In this document: positions 2,822-39,416 of the stretch, one piece after another
Position numbering within the stretch: position 1 is the stretch's first letter
How the letters are laid out: the number at the start of each line of letters is the position of its first letter
Source: Paraglomus occultum
Lineage: Eukaryota; Glomeromycota; Glomeromycetes; Paraglomerales; Paraglomeraceae
NCBI GenBank assembly: GCA_910592205.1
Contig: CAJVPJ010000126.1
Location: 1 to 42,112, forward strand
Direction: 5' to 3'
DNA length: 42,112 nt
Translations under genes and position numbers: made by a program
Notes under the pieces: model-generated
Told to the model about the DNA's origin: nothing
The model's database searches: none
What the model saw: the letters and a program-made list of their open reading frames with translations, nothing else

Positions 2822-5658
2822 ATGGGTCTTCAACTTTACGATCTGGTGGTGCTCTTCTTCAGCGTCGTCCTAGATATCTTCTTCCGGGAGATCAGACCGC
2901 GGGGCTCTCATAAAATCCCCGTAGAAGGGCCTGTAATCTTTGTCGCCGCGCCTCATGCTAATCAGGTATTGCACATTACAACATCATGCTATTGCCTTCT
3001 TTAACAATATTATACCGTATAAAATTAGTTATAATTCTCTATACTGTCAAAAGCTAATTTACTCGTGTATGGCATTCAATAAGCTTTCCCAGAGATTTAG
3101 TGAATTTCTTTACTGATCGTCGATTAAACTTGAACAAAAGTTATAACGTTTGTTTCATCCTTGTCCAGTTTGTAGATCCATTGATTCTTATGAGACATTG
3201 TTGTCGACGTGTCTCTTTCCTTATAGCGGCAAAGTCAATGAAACGTAAATATATTGGTGCAATGGCACGTGCATTACAAGCTAGTAAGTACTCTTTTTAA
3301 AGGAGGATGCAACTATTTGTAAATGTATCGAATTGATTAAACGTAATTCATTCAAATGAAATTACTTTGCTTAGTTCCTGTAACCAGGCCTCAGGATCTC
3401 GCCAAGCCGGGCACAGGAAAGATTCAGCTGTTCGATAGAAAGTCTGATCCGACTCGCATTATTGGCATCGGTACTCGATTCACTGAAGAATTGGGCGTTA
3501 GAGCTCAGATTAGCTTACCCAAAAATCGGGGCATTTCTGAAGTGGTGACGATCATATCAGATACCGAATTGATTGTTAAGAAAGAATTTAAAGATCTGAA
3601 TGCGTTGGAAATGTTAACGAAACCAGAAGGATCCGAATATTACTGCATACCTCATATAGACCAAAGTCAAGTGTATAAGGCTGTATTCGAGACGTTGAAC
3701 GCCGGGAGATGTATTGGAATATTTCCAGAAGGTGGAAGTCATGATAGAACCGAGATAATGCCATTAAAAGGTATATGTATAAAGTGTCAAGGAGGGGATT
3801 GTTGATTTTTGTTTCGTATTGTTTCATTGTATTGTCTTTTTTCTAACACTTATGATGCTTAGCCGGTGTATCCGTAATGGCACTTGGTGCAATGGCTGCT
3901 AACCCTAATCTTGATGTAAAGATTGTCCCTTGTGGTGAGTTGTACTTTTATTCGATAATGAGCTGTCGGTGAGAAACAATAATCAGAATAACTGACATAT
4001 CAAATATTTGCACAAGGTCTCAATTACTTCCATGCTCACCATTTCCGATCGCGTGCGGTTGTTGAGTTTGGTGCACCAATATCAGTACCCAGAGAACTTG
4101 TACAGAAATATAATAAAGGTGGTAATTATAAGAGAGAAGCATGCGGCAAACTGCTGGATACTATTTATAACGCCCTGATATCGGTCACCGTAAATACACC
4201 AGATTACGAAACTCTTATGGTAAATATAACGGCTTTTTGTAAATAATTGACCCCGACGTATTGATTCTGACTGCTTTGTATTTAGGTTATCCAAGCAGGG
4301 CGCCGGCTATATAAACCAGCCCATCGTAAGCTGCCGATATCCCAAGTTGTGGAATTGAATCGTCGATTTGTCGAAGGATATTTGCATTTCAAAGATGATC
4401 CAAGAGTACAAGAGATACGAAATAAGGTCATGAAATACAACCGATTATTAAAAGATTACGGTCTCAAAGATCATCAAGTTAATAAGACGGCGTTGGGAGG
4501 AGGTAGAGCCGCCGGTCTTTTAATATATAGAATACTAATTCTATCAGTTTGGACTATCCTGGGCCTGCCTGGGTAAGTAAATCCCTATCTTCATGTCTGA
4601 CAATATTAACATGAGCACTTTGTATTACGATAAAGTTTCATTAACACGTGGAATATTCTAGCTTCATTTTGAATCTCCCGATTGTACTAATTTCTCGTTG
4701 GATAAGTGGTCACAAGGCCAAAGGTTAGTAGGGGTTGCCCACACACATTGTATATTCTATGATTAACATTCGTCCTTTTATGTAGAGGCTGTTGCTGCAT
4801 CGTCCGTCAAAGTTGCAGGTCGTGACGTAGTAGCAACATGGAAGGTTCTCGTCGCTCTTGTGGTTACACCTATTTTATATGGATTCTACGCGTTTATTGT
4901 CTTGTTTCTATCATTCAAGTATGATTGGCCAACAACATGGAAGATATACGGTCCTATATTATCATATTTCTTAATGATGGCTGGAAGTTATGCAACAGTG
5001 CGTTTACTTGAAACTGGACTCGATATCTATAGGTAATAATGGCATCCGATGAAGCTTTAATATAAAACGCTTGCTGAATTAAAAAACCTCATTCTGAATT
5101 AGATCACTACGGCCGTTATTCCTTTCTCTACTACCCGGAGCTCGACCAGCCATCCAAAATCTACGACATGAACGAGAAAAATTGTCACAAGATCTCACTG
5201 CACTCATAAACGAATATGGCCCAAAGATATACGACGACTTTGACGCAGAACGGATAATACAAGCAGACAAACAAGGAACAAAGACACCGAATAGGCAGAG
5301 TCTTTTCAGCTCTCCTATAAACTGGCTTGATGATAAGGTTTTCAACTGGGAACGTGCTGCAGATTCAGAATACGACGACGTATTCTTCTTTATGGATAAA
5401 CAGAATGGAGGAATTACCGGACGCAGTAGAACCAGTTCATGGGCCGCCAGCGGAGCCAGTTCGGCATCGCGTAGTCGTACAAACTCTTTCGGTGCTGAAG
5501 CAATGAGAGTAGAATCGTTGACTCAATTGCCCAGAGATAAACCATTTTCAGAAGTAAATGGAAGGGGTCTTATTCCGCGTGTTGAAGTGCATCACGTCGA
5601 TGAGGATACCGGGTATCAGGGTGATAAAGAAGATGGGTTTACAAAAAAGACCCAATAA
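2822..5658 (+). CDS. Glycerol-3-phosphate/dihydroxyacetone-phosphate O-acyltransferase (Sct1/Gpt2 type)
   Basis: Transfers a fatty acyl group from acyl-CoA to sn-1 of glycerol-3-phosphate (or to DHAP), the first step of phospholipid and triacylglycerol synthesis at the ER membrane. Nine exons: 2822-2965, 3169-3283, 3375-3770, 3863-3934, 4017-4219, 4286-4572, 4662-4723, 4786-5032, 5103-5658, giving 693 residues; yeast Sct1 and Gpt2 are about 740-760. The acyltransferase blocks appear in order: PHANQFVDP at about 44-52 (catalytic His, acidic partner), IPVTRP at about 87-92, FPEGGSHD at about 203-210, and EFGAPISVP. Hydrophobic segments follow (LLIYRILILSVW..., VLVALVVTPILYGFY, a third near YFLMMAGSYATV), then a hydrophilic Ser/Arg-rich tail that may be regulatory. 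The insertion between blocks II and III is typical of fungal members. An AATAAA lies at 5721-5726. DHAP versus G3P preference cannot be read from sequence. Confidence 0.93.
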
Positions 5659-6296: not shown

Positions 6297-8603
6297 CTAC
6301 TGAACATCAATGGCTTGTCCACCAACTTTGACATTTCGATTGAACATTACCATCTTCTCTAACATGCGACCCAACGAATGTTTTGTAGTCTTGGTAACCT
6401 TCTTTGGGCTCTCGACTACGCGATTCACAGGTTGAGCTTTCAAATGACTCTTATCAGAAATCCTCTTGTAAGGAAATCTTGATGGTGAAGAAGATTCAGT
6501 ATATGGCTCTTGGCTATGGGGGGATACCCTGGACCTTAACGGAGCGGCCAAAGGTAATTCTCTGCGACGAACATGATCCGTTGAACCTTCAGTGTTGACA
6601 AACGACTTCTCATTTGGAGAACGTGAAATGCTCTTAGCGCGAGCGCGACGAGGGAATGAATGATTGACTGGCCAGGAGGGTTGATTATCAACATGACCAG
6701 ATGGCTTAAACTTAGTAAATCCAGACCCAGGTAGACGTTCTTGACCCCACCAATCACGATGTTTTTCCTGATGTTTCTCGTGTTGAACTTGTTCCTCCTT
6801 TCCTTTGCGTCTTTGTTCTAGACGTTCTCGTCGTTGATGGTATGATGACCAATGGCTGTTGGGGCTGGTAGAGTAGTCACTGGCTGCTTCGCGTTGATGT
6901 CCGCGATTCCGTTGCTCACCCCAAGGTCGAGGTTTGCAGTAAATCACTTTCGCCTGAGAAACTGTCGAGAATTCCTTGTTAGCATCCTTATCTCGGACGC
7001 GCACAGACGCTGAACTATAATCACGAGGTTGTCGTTTGGCAAAACCGTCATCAGAACCGAAACCAGAGTCTGTATCGCTATTGCTCGTAATACTGTCTTC
7101 GTCCTTGTTGGGATGTTCAAGGTCTTCAAAGGAAACTTTTCTTGAATCTTTGCCGTTATTAAAGTCTTTCTGCTTAATGTTTTCTTTCTCTTTTTCAAGT
7201 CGAAGCAAATCCTCATCGTCATTGAAAATGACAGGAGCAGAGAAATCCATTTCTTCGAATTCCTCATCAACGGCATCTGACCACGACTGTTTCCGGTCGT
7301 GATTCTCATACTTATCAGAAAGTGGTTCCTTATTAAAGCCAGAAGTCACCCATTCCTTAGTAACAATCTCATCGTGACGAACAGTTACGATAAGTTCTTC
7401 GTCAACATCTTCCGAGAGCATCCTTTCTACCAAGTACTTGCACCAAACTTTCCATTCCTTAATGCTGACGCGAGACTCTTCGGAACAGAAAACGCGGTCT
7501 GCTAAAAATCGGGCAACTTTTTCGGGCATAGTCGGAAAACGTTGTCTCAAGAAGGCGATTTTATCATGTTGAAATTCTGCGAAAGAATTGCATTCATTCT
7601 CATTAGGATCTGTCCACGGTGAACGATGATACAAGAGATTCAAGAAGATGATGCCCAATGACCAAACGTCAGCCTGACGCGGGTTGTACGTCTTGCGAAC
7701 AGGATTACGACATTCTGAGTACAAATTACAAGAATTAGTATTGAAAAGTTTGTAATGGATAACATTATTAATCTGCCGCAATTCACAATTGTACTTACCG
7801 TAGCTCATGTAGGGCTTTGAACCGCACTCGAAATCTACAGACTCAATCTCGTCCGTAGCCAAGCCAAAGTCCGTCAGTTTCACACGAATACCATTTTTGC
7901 CATTCTTCGTCATGACAATAAAATTCTCTGGTTTCAAATCGCGGTGTGCAATACAGTTGTCATGGCAGTGACCGACTGCCTCAAGGATTTGCTCAAAGAC
8001 CTGTTTCACAACTTCGAGATGTGCTCGTGAAGAGTAGTAGAGCTTTGCGATCGCATCGTTGCTGTTACCCTGCGTAAGCCAATAATATAGGTCTTGACCT
8101 TCACAGTATTCAAGAACGAGAAATAGCCAATCCCTTGTTTCGAACGAATAGTTAAGTGTGACAAGATTCTCGTGCTTGACTCCGCCAGAAGTAAGTCGTT
8201 GATGAAGTATCGCCTGGAATGATGAGTCATATATAATGTTAGTCAACAGTCAACAGTCAACAGTCAACAGTCGACAGTCAGAACAGCTCTCTTAATATGA
8301 TAAGTATCTTACCTCGTTTCTCTGCACCGACAAATGGTACTCGGACAAATTTGCCTTGGATAAACATTTGAGAGCGTATAGTCTATTATCCTTGTTATTA
8401 TGAGCCATGTATACAACAGCGTACGATCCGTTACCCAAGGGCTGTATCAATCTGTAAGTGACATCATGAGTAGGGTCATGTATAGTAGATCCAAGCTCGA
8501 AAGGCATTACTGTCGGTGAGACTAACGGTCTCCAATTGTAATCAATATGTTCTATAACAGAAACAGGTCTGATCGGAGTGGAAGAAGATCTTTTAAACAT
8601 CAT
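6297..8603 (-). CDS. Ser/Thr protein kinase, Ran1/Ksp1 type
   Basis: Exons on the minus strand: 8603-8313, 8213-7799, 7714-6297; 707 residues. An N-terminal kinase domain carries all key motifs: glycine loop PLGNGSYAVVY (56-66), Lys79 in YALKC, HRDLKPEN (187-194), DFGLA (212-216), CGSKPYMSYEC in the activation/P+1 region, and ADVWSLG. The S-KPYM-x-x-EC form, in place of the usual APE, is characteristic of the Ran1/Pat1, Ksp1, Sks1/Vhs1 group, which acts in nutrient, meiosis and filamentation signalling. The last about 340 residues are polar and low in complexity (Ser, Arg, Glu, Pro) and look disordered. Both introns have GTAAG donors; the second (84 nt) has no in-frame stop. The ATG at 8603 lies just before the kinase fold and no better upstream start was seen. 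The subfamily is fairly sure; the pathway is inferred. Confidence 0.9.
7715..7798 (-). other. Frame-preserving intron in the kinase activation segment
   Basis: GTAAGT donor and ACTCAG acceptor. The intron is 84 nt, exactly 28 codons, with no stop in the host frame. Splicing joins SKPYMSY to ECRNPVRK, restoring the family motif; retention would insert 28 residues between them. Confidence 0.8.
8241..8280. repeat. 7-bp tandem repeat inside kinase intron 1
   Basis: Four perfect copies of AGTCAAC (8241-8268), a fifth with one change (AGTCGAC, 8269-8275) and a partial sixth. It lies in the intron 8312-8214 and overlaps the predicted branch site TGACTAAC (minus strand of 8238-8245). Confidence 0.9.
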
Positions 8604-18000: not shown

Positions 18001-20792
18001 ATCACTTTGCCTTGCAAGTACCTGCAAGTCGATTTTGTCCATTTGTTGAACTCTATTTATTAAGCCAAGACGTTCCCAATATTCTTGCATTGGCTTGCTC
18101 TTGTCGGCGTTTGCATCACATATCCAAATGCGTTGCCGCGCTCTGGTTATCGCGACATAAAGATGTTTTAGCTCCGAAGAAAGAATATAATGTTTTTCGT
18201 GGACATATGCGGGAATTCCCTTAGCAGAATTATCGAATGCGGCAAGAATTAGCCGCCACTACAAAACGATAACCTCGATGAATAGGCGTATAAATTGTAT
18301 TAGAAGCGGAGTGTTAAGTCTTACCTTCAAACCCGCAGGTGAGTCTGTGAAGAAATTATACAATAACACATCATTAAATTCCATCCCCTTTGATTCGAAT
18401 ATTGTCATTATTATGCCTCTGTCGCCGACTAGCTTCTCTAATTTGCGTTTAACTATTTCATTACGGACTAGAATAACTTGTTCGGCTCCAAATTCAATTT
18501 TGTTCTCTTCCCCTTCCTTATTTGAGAAAATACTTAAAATGAAAGGGGTCTCCTGGAACCCACTAAAAAAATGAGGCAGTGGACCGCCCACTTCACCGCG
18601 TTCACGCGGTAACCGGTCGATAGAATCCGGGAAAAAATGCCAAATTAGGTCAATTATTGATGATGCAAGTTGTAATATTCCATCATGTGAACGATAGTTA
18701 ATATTTAATTCAAATTGTTTTGGTTTTGCTACATTATACGGTTCACGATGTTCTTCTCTTCGGTCAATTTCCCATTGATAAAGCAACGCGCTTATGTCTA
18801 TGACACATAAAAATCCTTATTAATACAACCGATCATCTATAAACAAAAACAAATATAAACCAAACCGTATTTACCCTGGAACCGAAAAGAAGATCCTTGT
18901 GCGATACATTGTGCTATATCTCCCGCCACGAAAACGCTTTCGGCACGATGGAAAAGTTTTAGGATGAGTGCAAAATCGACTATGCTATTATCCTGGCATT
19001 CATCGATGTACAGTTCGTGGACGGGGAAACAACCAAGTTGTTCCATTTTGGCACGACGCAAAACAGCTATTGTTCTGCAAATTAATTTTGAGAATTTAAT
19101 TTAAAGTTTTAAAACACAATCAATGCACCCCATCGCTCTTACCGATCGATGGAGTCGTAATCATGAAACCGTGTTTTTATCTTTTCGTACTGTTCAAATA
19201 AATCGTAAACGGAATCGCGGTTATAGCGAAAAGCTGGGTATTTTTTTGTGCTAATGTTTCGGTAATCTTCCCTCGACAAAAAGACCCCTTCAGGGTTGGT
19301 ACCCTTAACAAAAACAAAAAAAAATTAACCAAATGTTCGGTAGCTATGGAGATTTATACATGGTGATATATACCTTTATGACAGAGATCTCGGAAAATAC
19401 CATCCAACAATCTAGTTCGTGTGTGCTGAAATGAGGCCAATACTTTTTCTGAAAGAGCTTAAAGTCAACGTGGTGCACCCACGCTGCTTTAGATTTCCTA
19501 GTAAAGGAAGACCCTCTGCAGAACTCGTCATCATCTTCTTCAAGTTCTAATCCTGTGATCGATTCTTGAAAATCAATCCCATACGTCGCTTGTAACATTT
19601 GAGCGAAAGTGTCGTAGGTCATAAACAATGGAAAATGGTCACCCGTCAATTGACGGAATGATTTTGGAATGTCTTCATCTTTGTGCTTTGTGTCATTAGT
19701 AATGACATCGATACCATCCTCTTTCTTTTTTATAAATTCAGCAAATTGTGATTCAGAAAGTTCTCTCCCGGCTAATTCCACGGAATCTTTCAGCCGTTTG
19801 AAATAATTCTTAACCCGAAGACACAGATTGGAACTTAATGTGATGAATATTTGATTCTTACGAGGACTTTTTTCATTGTCCAAGTTACTGGGATAATCTG
19901 GTAAACATGATGAGACTAAGCGAAACACTATGCAAGTGGTTTTCCCGGTCCCTAAATACCAAATATGTAATTTAGAGACTTTTTCCCATAATAAAATGTT
20001 GCAGCAGGAAGACTAACCAGATCGACCGATAATGATAGTTGATGTACGATTTTGGATAATTTCATATTCCGTTTTCGATACCTGAAAAGTGAACTCTGCT
20101 CCGCCCGTAATAAGAGATTTAAACAAGCTCTACGATACAAATGATTAGACGTCTGTTAAGTTACGTATTATTAATATATAACATGATCAAGGTCTAATTT
20201 CATGGACAATTACCTTCGATAATGGAACAAACTTATTCGTTACAAGCATTTTGTGAACCTCTAGAAGGTTCTCCCCGCTTATCGGGGACCCGTATGGTAT
20301 GTCGGTTACAGATTTTGTTCTGTCATTACCTTCAATGATACATGGTGAAATAATACCATTTATTGCCTGGCGAACTACACAAAGACGATTATGCTCGGCA
20401 GTATAAACTAAGTGAAGTATCGCGAGACTATCCAATGTCTTCTTAATTATCTCATCGTCTGCGCTAATCGCCCATATTTTTACAAGTTGTGTAATCGTAT
20501 GGCTACGCGTGGAAAAGTCGCAGTCAACTTGCCAAAGAATTTTAAGACCGTCATTATTAATGACTATTTCATAGACAGGATTGGTGGTGTGCAATGAGGA
20601 AATACGTCTAAGTCCGCGCTTATCCCAAGCACCTGATGATATTTGGCCCAATTTTTTTACAACTGCGTTTATGACAGTTGATGATTTCAATTTTCGTATG
20701 TCCCTAATTGCACCTTCACTTAACATAACATCCCAGGGACCCAATCCATCATTATCGTCGAATTCAAATGGGAGATGCAATGCGTCTGCCAT
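15028..20792 (-). CDS. Large SF1 (UvrD-like) helicase with TPR-like repeats, TRANK1-like
   Basis: Ten exons on the minus strand: 20792-20214, 20129-20018, 19951-19374, 19303-19143, 19074-18875, 18797-18325, 18258-17944, 17880-17680, 17604-17408, 17335-15028; 1707 residues. Walker A GRSGTGKTT lies at 228-236 and spans an exon junction. Walker B is DECQD at about 501-505, followed by GDIAQCI (motif III-like), NINYRSH (motif IV-like) and VAITRARQR (motif VI). These are hallmarks of a UvrD/Rep superfamily 1 ATPase. After the helicase core come helical repeats rich in Ala/Tyr/Asn (YARNNMNCLAANRYYQANMW) resembling TPR units, then an about 770-residue helical C-terminal region without a recognised domain. 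About 190 residues precede the helicase. The ATG at 20792 (AAAAATGGC) is the first good start. The family resembles animal TRANK1 and related fungal proteins; substrate and role are unknown. Confidence 0.85.
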
Positions 20793-23661: not shown

Positions 23662-24780
23662 ATGTCAGGCTTAAAAAGTAAACAGTATTGCATCTGACTT
23701 TGTTTTGTTTATGACGTCTATAACTATTAACTATTGTGTTTTCTCGTTTCTTTTCTGTGTGCATTAGCGTAAGTATGCCGAGTCATTGTCGTAAAGTAGA
23801 TCAGCGTTACAAGAAGACTACGCGAGACTAGGATAAAGTGTGATCACAGGCTATTTGCTCAAAACATTAATTTCTCATACTTCAATGTACAATTTTCTCT
23901 GTATAGTATCATCATATTAGCTTTTGTGCTTGCTGGTGGCTTTTTATTGGAAATCTTGTCTGGTGCACTATTTGAGTATGTAAATTCACATTTGTTCTCT
24001 GTGATGTATGCGCCGAAGGCTTTTGTCTTATTAAATCTGAACCGCTTCTATTGTTTTAACTTTATAGGAATTGGTGGCCTATGTTTGTTGGTTCGTATTG
24101 AGCCTATTTTGTTTACCGAAAAGAAACGAAGCTGATACTATTTTTAAACCATTTTGCAGTGGCTATTTACTTGCTGGCTCTAATACCTAATTGGATCTTT
24201 TCAAGATGTGCGAGTAATGACGATTATTCGACTGACAGGACAAGGTCTGAGCAAACGCCTTTATTGATCGTATTCTTTGAAAACCGCCTTCCTTTTCAAT
24301 GCTTGCTACGATGTGGGCGATTTGTAAAGCGATTTCTATGCATTTTGTAGTGGGTTCAAAGATTTTGGCCAGTTCTTGACATCTGTTTTTCTTGTTACGG
24401 GTTTTGGTAAGCAAATCTCGAATTCATTGAACCATGTTGCGTTTAATAACTCGTTAATTCACTCGCCTGCGATGCATTCTTCAGGTTTGCCAATCGTTCT
24501 TGCTCATGCGTCTGTGGTACGTAATAGCCCATATTTGCTAATGTATTTAATGTATAATAAACAAGGTTACCTAATAAGTGTTTATTAATTCTCAAAGATA
24601 ACGTATTCTGCTATGGTAATGAGTACTGCCGGGGGACTTCTCGTATACGGAACAAGTAAGTAACGTTACTCGTCTCAATAGCATTCGTTCCTTGTCCATG
24701 CATTTATTCGTAATTCGCATTATTCTTGATTAGTTGTCACGTATATACATCATTTTTCTAACGAAGGTGAAGATTTTTAA
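23662..24780 (+). CDS. VPS55: Vps55/LEPROT family endosomal membrane protein
   Basis: A small tetraspanning protein which, with Vps68, supports transport from late endosome to vacuole; the animal homologues are LEPROT/LEPROTL1. Exons: 23662-23677, 23768 (one base), 23907-23975, 24068-24090, 24160-24244, 24351-24406, 24485-24516, 24598-24655, 24734-24780; 128 residues, against about 131-140 in the family. Family landmarks in order: MSGLKTIIILAFVLAGGFLL (TM1), ENWWPMF, LLALIPNWIFSR (TM2, the conserved L-x-P-x-P-like turn), DFGQFLTSVFLVTGF (TM3), LPIVLAHASV, and STAGGLLVYGT (TM4) with a short acidic tail. Donors GTTCGT (24091) and GTCTGA (24245) are weak but are the ones that preserve frame. Joining exon 1 directly to 23907 gives an early stop; the one-base exon fixes this. 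The track of short open frames hides the gene because its exons are tiny. Confidence 0.88.
23768..23768 (+). other. Predicted one-nucleotide microexon of VPS55
   Basis: A single C lies between a strong 3' splice site (branch-like CTATTAAC at about 23725, T-rich tract, GCATTAG ending at 23767) and a perfect donor GTAAGT (23769-23774). Including it makes the codon A+C+T (Thr) across three exons and keeps the Vps55 frame. Confidence 0.65.
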
Positions 24781-36196: not shown

Positions 36197-38029
36197 TTAT
36201 AACTCCTCATGTGCACTCACAGTTTCAGCGGGTGGGGTCTCTTTCGGTGGCTCTTCTTCTGCTTTTGTTACAGTTACTTTGTTAACAGCATGTTGATCAA
36301 GAAATTCTATGAAACTTTCATACGATCTGTTTCCTTGGAAATCAACAATGTCTTTCTCTTCGCCGGCTTTGAATAATTTGATCGTAGGGAATCCACTGAC
36401 TTTGAAAGGAACGCGGGGAGGAAGATCGTTTTCCGTGGCATCCATCTTGGCGATAACGATCTTATCCTTGAACGGAGCATACGCTTCGCCTACTTTGTCG
36501 TAAGTTGGGGCCAGTTTCTTGCAATGGCCGCACCCTATGTACGCAGGTTAGGAATTCAAAAAGTACAAACCAAATTTTCATATGAATCAATAAGATGAGA
36601 AGCCAATACTATTTTATCACATACGATATGATATAACTTTGGTTAAACATTTGTGAATTTACTTACATGGTGCGTAGAATTCGACAAGAACGTCCTTGGC
36701 AGTGTCATAAACAGTTTGTTCAAAATTGTCAGCAACAAGAACGTACACAGGTTCGTCGTTAGTCTCGGGAATAGGTTGACTTTTAATGCTCGGCTTAATC
36801 TCTGAGTTGACAAAAGCAGAACAAAATTCTCTGATGCCATCTGTCGTTATTTCTTTACTTTGATCATAAGGATACTTGTTCCCCTGCGCCGGTTCACTGA
36901 TAGCAAACGCGGGCCATGTTTGTTTCAAGTTCAAATTATCGGCGTGCCCTCCATATGCCGTCGCATTGATAAACACAAAGTTAATCTTCCCCTTGAATTC
37001 TCCAGCTACAGGTTCGGCTTGCTCATAAAGTTGTTCTCTTTGTTCCGGATTGTCATAGAAGAAGAAAGCGATAGGTACTTTCGTATCCACGTACAAGGGA
37101 TAGTTGTCTGGAGTAATCTCATCCAATACTTTTATCGAACTCGTTCTGACAAAGCTGGCCAAGTCTTCTTCAGTGAATGGACCAGTGAACACGTTCTTGC
37201 CCTCGTCGAATTTTTTGTAGACCACGACTGCAGGAAGTGTTGTTAAACCTTCTTCCGAAGCAAGCTTAGAGTTAACGGCTGCGCCAAAGCGGAATTCGTC
37301 ACGCAATGCTTCAGCAACCTTGCTATAAACATTGAATTCGTCTTGAGTTGTGCCAGAGAAAAATCCAACGATTATCACATTTTCAGCTTCCTTGAAAGAG
37401 GTGAAGTTGCTGGGCGTTACTACGGCAACCGCGGGCAATAGTTGTCTATTTTGTGTAGAGAGTGTTAGTCGAGAATCTTAAAAGATCGGTTACATTGTCA
37501 TCTGGTGTACAAGCGTAAGATTATACATTACTTTCGCATATACGAAATGATAGCATCGGCTTTACGGGGACCGGCGTAATCAGCCGCAACTTTTCCTTCT
37601 TTAAATATTTTTATAGTTGGATATCCTCCGACATCGAACGATTGACAAAGCTTCGTTTCAGCAGTGCAGTCAACCTTGGCTAGCTTGATTTCATCTTTCT
37701 TTAGGGTTGTAGCGGCTACTTCATATTCAGGCGCTATTATTGTATAATGTCAAATAATGAATTAATTTATTCTTTCATCCAGAAGCATTGTATTCGATGT
37801 GATCTGTTTACTAACCCAACGCTTTACAATGCCCGCACCACGGAGCGAAAAACTCCACCATTATCAAGTTCTCTGGATCGACTATTGTCGAGAAGGTTTT
37901 TTCCGTCAATGAGATGACATCGGAAATTACTTCTTCTGCGGGCGGGCTTTCTTCTTCAAGCTCGTCTGCACGTACGAATAATGAAAAGACCAGGAAGGCC
38001 AAAGCAAGGATTAATATATTTCGAATCAT
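36197..38029 (-). CDS. PDI1: Protein disulfide isomerase (ER lumen)
   Basis: Forms, breaks and rearranges disulfide bonds in the ER lumen. Four exons, minus strand: 38029-37816, 37733-37532, 37445-36667, 36534-36197; 510 residues, the usual PDI length. Signal peptide 1-21 ([21 protein letters not shown]), acidic linker, thioredoxin domain a with [12 protein letters not shown] (CGHC at 65-68), b and b' domains, domain a' with [15 protein letters not shown] (CGHC at about 400-403), then an acidic tail ending in HEEL. The second active site is split by the last intron: the first base of the Trp codon lies in exon 3 and the other two in exon 4. HEEL differs from the more common HDEL/KDEL but is a known functional variant. 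Introns have GTTAGT, GTAATG and GTAAGT donors. A TATA-like box and a CCAAT box lie upstream. Confidence 0.96.
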
Positions 38030-39345: not shown

Positions 39346-39416
39346 GCATCAGTAGTATAGCGGTAGAATACTTGCCTTCCAAGCAAGTGGCCCGGGTTCA
39401 ACTCCCGGCTGATGCA
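39346..39416 (+). tRNA. tRNA-Gly, anticodon TCC
   Basis: A 71-nt cloverleaf: acceptor GCATCAG / CTGATGC with discriminator A; D stem GTAT / ATAC; anticodon stem CTTGC / GCAAG around loop CTTCCAA (anticodon TCC, reads GGA); T arm with loop GTTCAAC between CCGGG and CCCGG. No intron. A T4 run about 15 bases downstream can end RNA polymerase III transcription. A and B box positions (TAGTATAGCGG, GGTTCAACTCC) are normal. Confidence 0.96.

Follow-up and report, generated by a model that had tools for sequence, protein, structure and literature searches.

How is the first exon of the Vps55 gene of the arbuscular mycorrhizal fungus Paraglomus occultum joined to the exon encoding the first transmembrane segment, given that direct joining breaks the reading frame? 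We examined this locus in a window of 42,112 nucleotides (the whole stretch of DNA analyzed, i.e., contig C126, positions 1-42112) and against the genome assembly of 32.3 Mb in 1,408 contigs. The Vps55 gene is complete, lies on the plus strand at 23662-24780 and comprises nine exons if a single C at position 23768 is counted among them. Its joined exons add up to 387 bases—128 codons plus a stop—and the remainder of the gene is intact. The identification as Vps55, proposed in a preliminary description of this sequence, is confirmed by a match of the protein to PF04133 (149 bits, with the cut-off at 24.6; E = 6.9e-44) that extends over profile positions 1-119 of 120 and places the protein within the family. 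A search of the genome for a second copy or haplotype returned none, the gene being single-copy. The window also contains, on the minus strand, ORC2 (PF04084 and PF24882, 25139-26188) and a piece of a Vps11-like protein (PF23356, 28526-29083), which makes it a second gene of vacuolar sorting, some 4 kb away from Vps55, together with a protein kinase frame (6297-8246), a frame with a weak UvrD_C match (18259-18786) and a tRNA-Gly (39346-39416). The features of the Vps55 gene are as follows.

23662..23677, plus strand: exon 1, 16 nt, encoding MSGLK plus one A; the relatives P0001-P0005 start with MAGLK or MAGVK
23678..23767, plus strand: proposed intron 1, 90 nt, GTAAAC...ATTAG, containing a pyrimidine tract and, at 23727, TTAAC
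23685..23690, plus strand: alternative donor GTATTG, giving a single 222-nt intron and an MSGLKSKH start; weak percentiles
23768..23768, plus strand: proposed one-nucleotide exon, C, the middle base of the Thr codon A-C-T (residue 6), restoring the Vps55 frame
23769..23906, plus strand: proposed intron 2, 138 nt, GTAAGT...TATAG
23907..23975, plus strand: exon 3, 69 nt, first transmembrane segment, donor GTATGT
24068..24090, plus strand: exon 4, 23 nt
24160..24244, plus strand: exon 5, 85 nt
24351..24406, plus strand: exon 6, 56 nt
24485..24516, plus strand: exon 7, 32 nt
24598..24655, plus strand: exon 8, 58 nt
24734..24780, plus strand: exon 9, 47 nt, stop TAA, with an SNEGEDF C-terminus as in relatives

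Exon 1 ends in AAAAA|GTAAAC and exon 3 begins after TATAG|TATC; joined directly, they read MSGLKISSY-stop, with termination after nine residues. This is the immediate stop that the preliminary description had reported, and the landmarks on which its account was built—exon 1 at 23662-23677, GTAAAC at 23678, ATTAG up to 23767, the C at 23768, GTAAGT at 23769-23774, TATAG ending at 23906 and the start of the transmembrane exon at 23907—are all present in the sequence. Its statement that no AG between 23800 and 23907 offers the needed phase holds as well, with 13 AGs located at 23700-23907 and the 10 from 23796 onward out of frame. The acceptors at 23767, 23773 and 23782 are in frame for exon 1, yet each leads to a stop. 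The C at 23768 sits between an ordinary 3' splice site and GTAAGT, dividing the 228-nt gap into stretches of 90 and 138 nt. Its inclusion turns the N-terminus into MSGLKTIIILAF, which resembles that of the relatives and has Thr as residue 6 (a G, A or T at the same position would encode Ser, Asn or Ile, respectively). A single base thus lies between AG and GT, and including it repairs the frame. The preliminary description overlooked, however, that a weak donor at 23685 opens the frame too, adding two residues, and the claim that a one-nucleotide exon is strictly needed must be withdrawn. What stands is that a one-nucleotide exon is the best-supported gene model, and we place the probability that P. 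occultum Vps55 has a one-nucleotide coding exon, the C at 23768, at roughly 0.77, judging from the genomic sequence. Enumerating 5' models from 23300 onward that contain up to two introns, subject to the limits on length and score set in the script, yielded 473 open ones; 379 of these have two introns, 94 have a single intron and none is intronless. Among the models that retain IILAFVLAGG, the top five by score all include the C, under a scoring scheme in which a tiny exon carries no penalty.

To judge the quality of the splice sites, we compared them with the species' own introns, as predicted by a small self-trained gene finder in the window and in 20 stretches of 10 kb. The resulting reference set holds 186 introns with a median length of 85 nt, in which GTAAGT is the commonest donor (28/186) and TTAG the second commonest acceptor (27/186). 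A minus-strand protein disulfide isomerase (PDI) at 36200-38029 of the window served as a check: its 510-residue product matches a database protein of P. occultum at 100% identity, and our hand-spliced reading of its introns agrees with the public model. The gene finder placed the three PDI introns exactly but extended the gene into its neighbor, and its final run called no Vps55 exon; the 186 introns are therefore to be taken as predictions that include errors. Elsewhere in the window (4919-5102), it divided a 184-nt intron at TATAG|GTAATA (5032/5033), leaving between the two parts an exon of zero length, which may mark a recursive splice point or be an artefact of the model. Against this reference, the GTAAAC donor at 23678 falls at the 26th-32nd percentile, the ATTAG acceptor before the C at the 42nd (with its pyrimidine tract at the 99th) and the TATAG acceptor at 23906 at the 44th, while the GTAAGT following the C belongs to the top class on six intron bases and to the 40th percentile on nine. 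Both sites flanking the C thus resemble those of the predicted introns of this species. Lengths of 90 and 138 nt are ordinary, whereas introns as long as the undivided gap are infrequent (at least 228 nt in 7/186). RNA folding of the region 23662-23975 indicated no special structure, with 100 of 100 shuffled sequences folding at least as well (z = 3.17).

A bare AG-N-GT is common, with 0.38 such sites expected in the 138 usable bases. Sites of the quality seen here are scarce: of 1,316 AG-N-GT sites in 484,224 strand-bases, three score as well as that around the C, itself included, and none of the five located inside predicted introns does; about 6e-4 other equally good sites would be expected in the 138 usable bases. 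On both strands of the 32.3-Mb genome, there are 64 occurrences of TTAGNGTAAGT and 430 of YAGNGTAAGT, and adding TTAAC or CTAAC 10-35 bases upstream leaves 16 and 2 matches, two of which share one end. All of these rates are indicative only, as the search patterns were picked after the site was known. Among those 18 matches, no tract is richer in pyrimidines than that of the site at 23768, which also belongs to the six without an AG between the upstream motif and the acceptor. Reversed control patterns were commoner every time (130, 713, 48 and 18 against 64, 430, 16 and 2), and nothing consequently points to a large class of one-base exons in the P. occultum genome.

Comparison with related proteins bears on the sixth residue. 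A search for Vps55 among proteins of 70-224 residues gave 112 candidates, nine of them at E ≤ 0.001, and six of these nine align over 96-100% of the query with 58-66% identity; four of the six are from named species—Rhizophagus irregularis, Glomus cerebriforme, Gigaspora rosea and Rhizophagus diaphanus (a partial model). The N-terminus M-A-G-L/V-K-S/T-I is exact in four of the five relatives that have this region (P0002-P0005), and the C-containing model matches these four both in residue spacing and in residue 6. The R. irregularis protein (P0001) carries three extra residues here, which suggests that length may vary at this point.

Alternative readings were weighed against this evidence. The overlooked donor would allow a single 222-nt intron running from GTATTG at 23685 to TATAG at 23906, with ATTAG-C-GTAAGT as a chance match or decoy; the protein would begin MSGLKSKH-IIILAF (the model reads MSGLKSKHIIILAF) and the mRNA junction would be ...TTAAAAAGTAAACA-TATCATC. 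Such a transcript keeps its frame open to the end of the gene and calls for no unusual exon; P0001 likewise has additional residues exactly where the two would be inserted, and Pfam cannot separate the two proteins (149 bits with the C, 148.9 bits with this donor). Weak sites do exist elsewhere in the same gene model: the donor of exon 5 (GTCTGA, scored on six bases) and the acceptor of exon 9 both rank at the 4th percentile, and GTATTG and GTAAAC are equally frequent among the predicted donors (2/186 each). We nevertheless consider this single-intron structure unlikely: GTATTG reaches just the 3rd percentile when nine bases are scored and the 13th with six, a better donor is available seven bases upstream, two residues are inserted where P0002-P0005 show none, an intron of at least 222 nt is found in only 7/186 cases, and the internal splice signals become an accident of about 6e-4.

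Distinctly unlikely is a base lost from the assembly, or a true one-base deletion at the splice junction, although a single such loss would suffice to create the phase conflict. A second G at 23678, for example, would give AAA-AG|GT and Ser at residue 6, the residue found in P0002 and P0003. The internal splice signals would then be left unexplained and the rest of the gene is intact; moreover, genomes of this kind were assembled from pooled Illumina reads at ~100x with SPAdes, as far as the account in PMC10512289 goes, in a set to which this contig presumably belongs. The genome offers no second copy for comparison. Extremely doubtful, finally, is any other exon structure—a different start, the acceptor at 23849, another AG-C-GT (23803-23807), or C-containing and C-lacking isoforms side by side. 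The 473 open 5' models leave nominal room for such structures, transcripts of VPS55 with and without a one-nucleotide exon coexist in some non-vascular plants (described in PMC8831610), and the model using the acceptor at 23849, which also contains the C, scores slightly higher than the preferred one (-3.5 against -3.7). That acceptor adds 19 residues present in no relative, and other starts forfeit the conserved MSGLK. The second AG-C-GT in the gap (ATCAG|C|GTTACA) would yield the same mRNA; its donor and acceptor rank at the 1st and 2nd percentiles, respectively.

If the C at 23768 is indeed an exon, the spliceosome would most likely remove the two flanking introns successively, by intron definition. 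Removal of the 90-nt intron would join exon 1 to the C and leave the strong donor AAAAAC|GTAAGT, from which the 138-nt intron could then be excised to TATAG at 23906. The resulting mRNA would read AAA-ACT-ATC across the junction (...GGCTTAAAAA-C-TATCATCATATTAGC), encoding the N-terminus given above, while skipping of the C would produce ...GGCTTAAAAA-TATCATC and a frameshift. The acceptor and the next donor lie one base apart, presumably too close to be bound simultaneously. An upstream-intron-first order appears to be the simplest, since AAC|GTAAGT, as formed by the first step, is a better donor than AGC|GTAAGT (scores of 5.63 vs 4.43). As to origin, a likely scenario is that an intron was gained one base upstream of an older one; the C would then represent the final base of the former exon 1. 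In the R. irregularis model, II is preceded by K-T-Y-V-F, and the partial R. diaphanus model opens with S followed by II; because of these residues, we infer from the two protein models (P0001 and P0006) that the older intron would have cut codon 6 after its second base, with the next exon starting in T, as exon 3 does.

Predicted proteins of P. occultum or P. brasilianum included no Vps55 at either 70-224 or 153-486 residues, and PDI proteins of both species are present in the protein database. Padding the query to 278 residues, in search of a longer public protein containing Vps55, gave 465 candidates, none at E ≤ 0.001, and among bacterial and archaeal contigs, as possible carriers of fungal contamination, 166 pattern matches to Vps55 yielded 0 confirmed cases. 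For a set of de novo assemblies of Glomeromycota, including two Paraglomus isolates, gene models came from GeneMark-ES with alignments to Swiss-Prot as guidance (PMC10512289), and the proposed one-base exon may have broken the public Vps55 gene model. In plants, a standard aligner misses one-nucleotide exons unless the junctions are supplied, and an Arabidopsis annotation that omits the VPS55 exon is 13 residues short (both in PMC8831610). If confirmed, the exon may explain why Paraglomus Vps55 is absent from the predicted proteins at the lengths searched, and such a missing gene would caution against concluding that arbuscular mycorrhizal fungi have lost a gene.

The preliminary description had regarded one-nucleotide exons as very rare, with a plant APC11 gene as an example. 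Rare they are, and the present case is less isolated than was assumed, as both plant VPS55 and Fusarium CYP621A provide published counterparts. Most likely, P. occultum Vps55 is a further instance of an already known phenomenon, one that plants display in the very same gene. No report of a one-nucleotide exon from Glomeromycota or from a fungal Vps55 emerged among open-licence papers; within that literature, confirmation by RNA would make this the second fungal nuclear example after Fusarium CYP621A. It would also establish a one-nucleotide exon in Vps55 in two kingdoms—raising the question of why the same gene was affected twice—and the site, if true, would offer a small, naturally occurring system for testing two-step splicing in a short-intron genome.

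Among mitochondrial genes, one-base exons are known from placozoan cox1 (PMC5436844) and from the rRNA gene rnl in a relative of Ophiostoma; the latter paper also cites a similar case in Ceratocystis (PMC12308204). They place one base between two introns, but these are group I or group II introns that involve no spliceosome. Fungal stwintrons—nested spliceosomal twin introns—share the successive removal of two introns at one place that is proposed here; in those elements, the inner intron breaks a splice signal of the outer one, whereas the Vps55 GTAAGT at 23769-23774 is uninterrupted and one base separates the introns and would be retained. The site accordingly does not qualify as a stwintron. 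The CYP621A exon of Fusarium, published in 2026 with RNA reads (PMC12940212), likewise lies in a fungal nuclear gene and was betrayed by an over-long gap; within a conserved motif, it contributes the second base of a codon, as the C would here, and it differs in that its base is a G within AGGGT, is kept in many species and is supported by RNA. Arabidopsis APC11 (PMC4674806) carries one coding base between two spliceosomal introns, and the authors of that study suggest that intron definition and recursive splicing act together; that case concerns another gene and was tested with constructs. The APC11 gene of P. occultum itself (contig C200) starts with MKVKIK and has an ordinary 73-nt first intron, and over the two exons inspected, its first two, no one-base exon is needed.

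A close parallel is VPS55 of plants. Set against the Arabidopsis protein, the exon in plants would sit at least some two codons upstream of its presumed fungal counterpart, which favors an independent origin. Descent of both exons from one that predates the split between fungi and the plant line is very unlikely; in a milder version of this idea, the spot would be a recurrent birthplace of such exons, given that length is tightly constrained where the first membrane segment begins. A land-plant-conserved one-nucleotide microexon in VPS55 was validated by RT-PCR and RNA-seq (AT3G11530, cluster 2; PMC8831610), and Vps55 of the alga Zygnema has a one-nucleotide exon as well (PMC11096116). Gene family, a one-base coding exon near the N-terminus ahead of the first transmembrane segment, a GTRAGT donor and an exon overlooked by annotation would be common to these cases and to P. 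occultum; the difference lies in the kingdom, and in that the plant exon is proven by RNA, whereas the fungal one is predicted from sequence.
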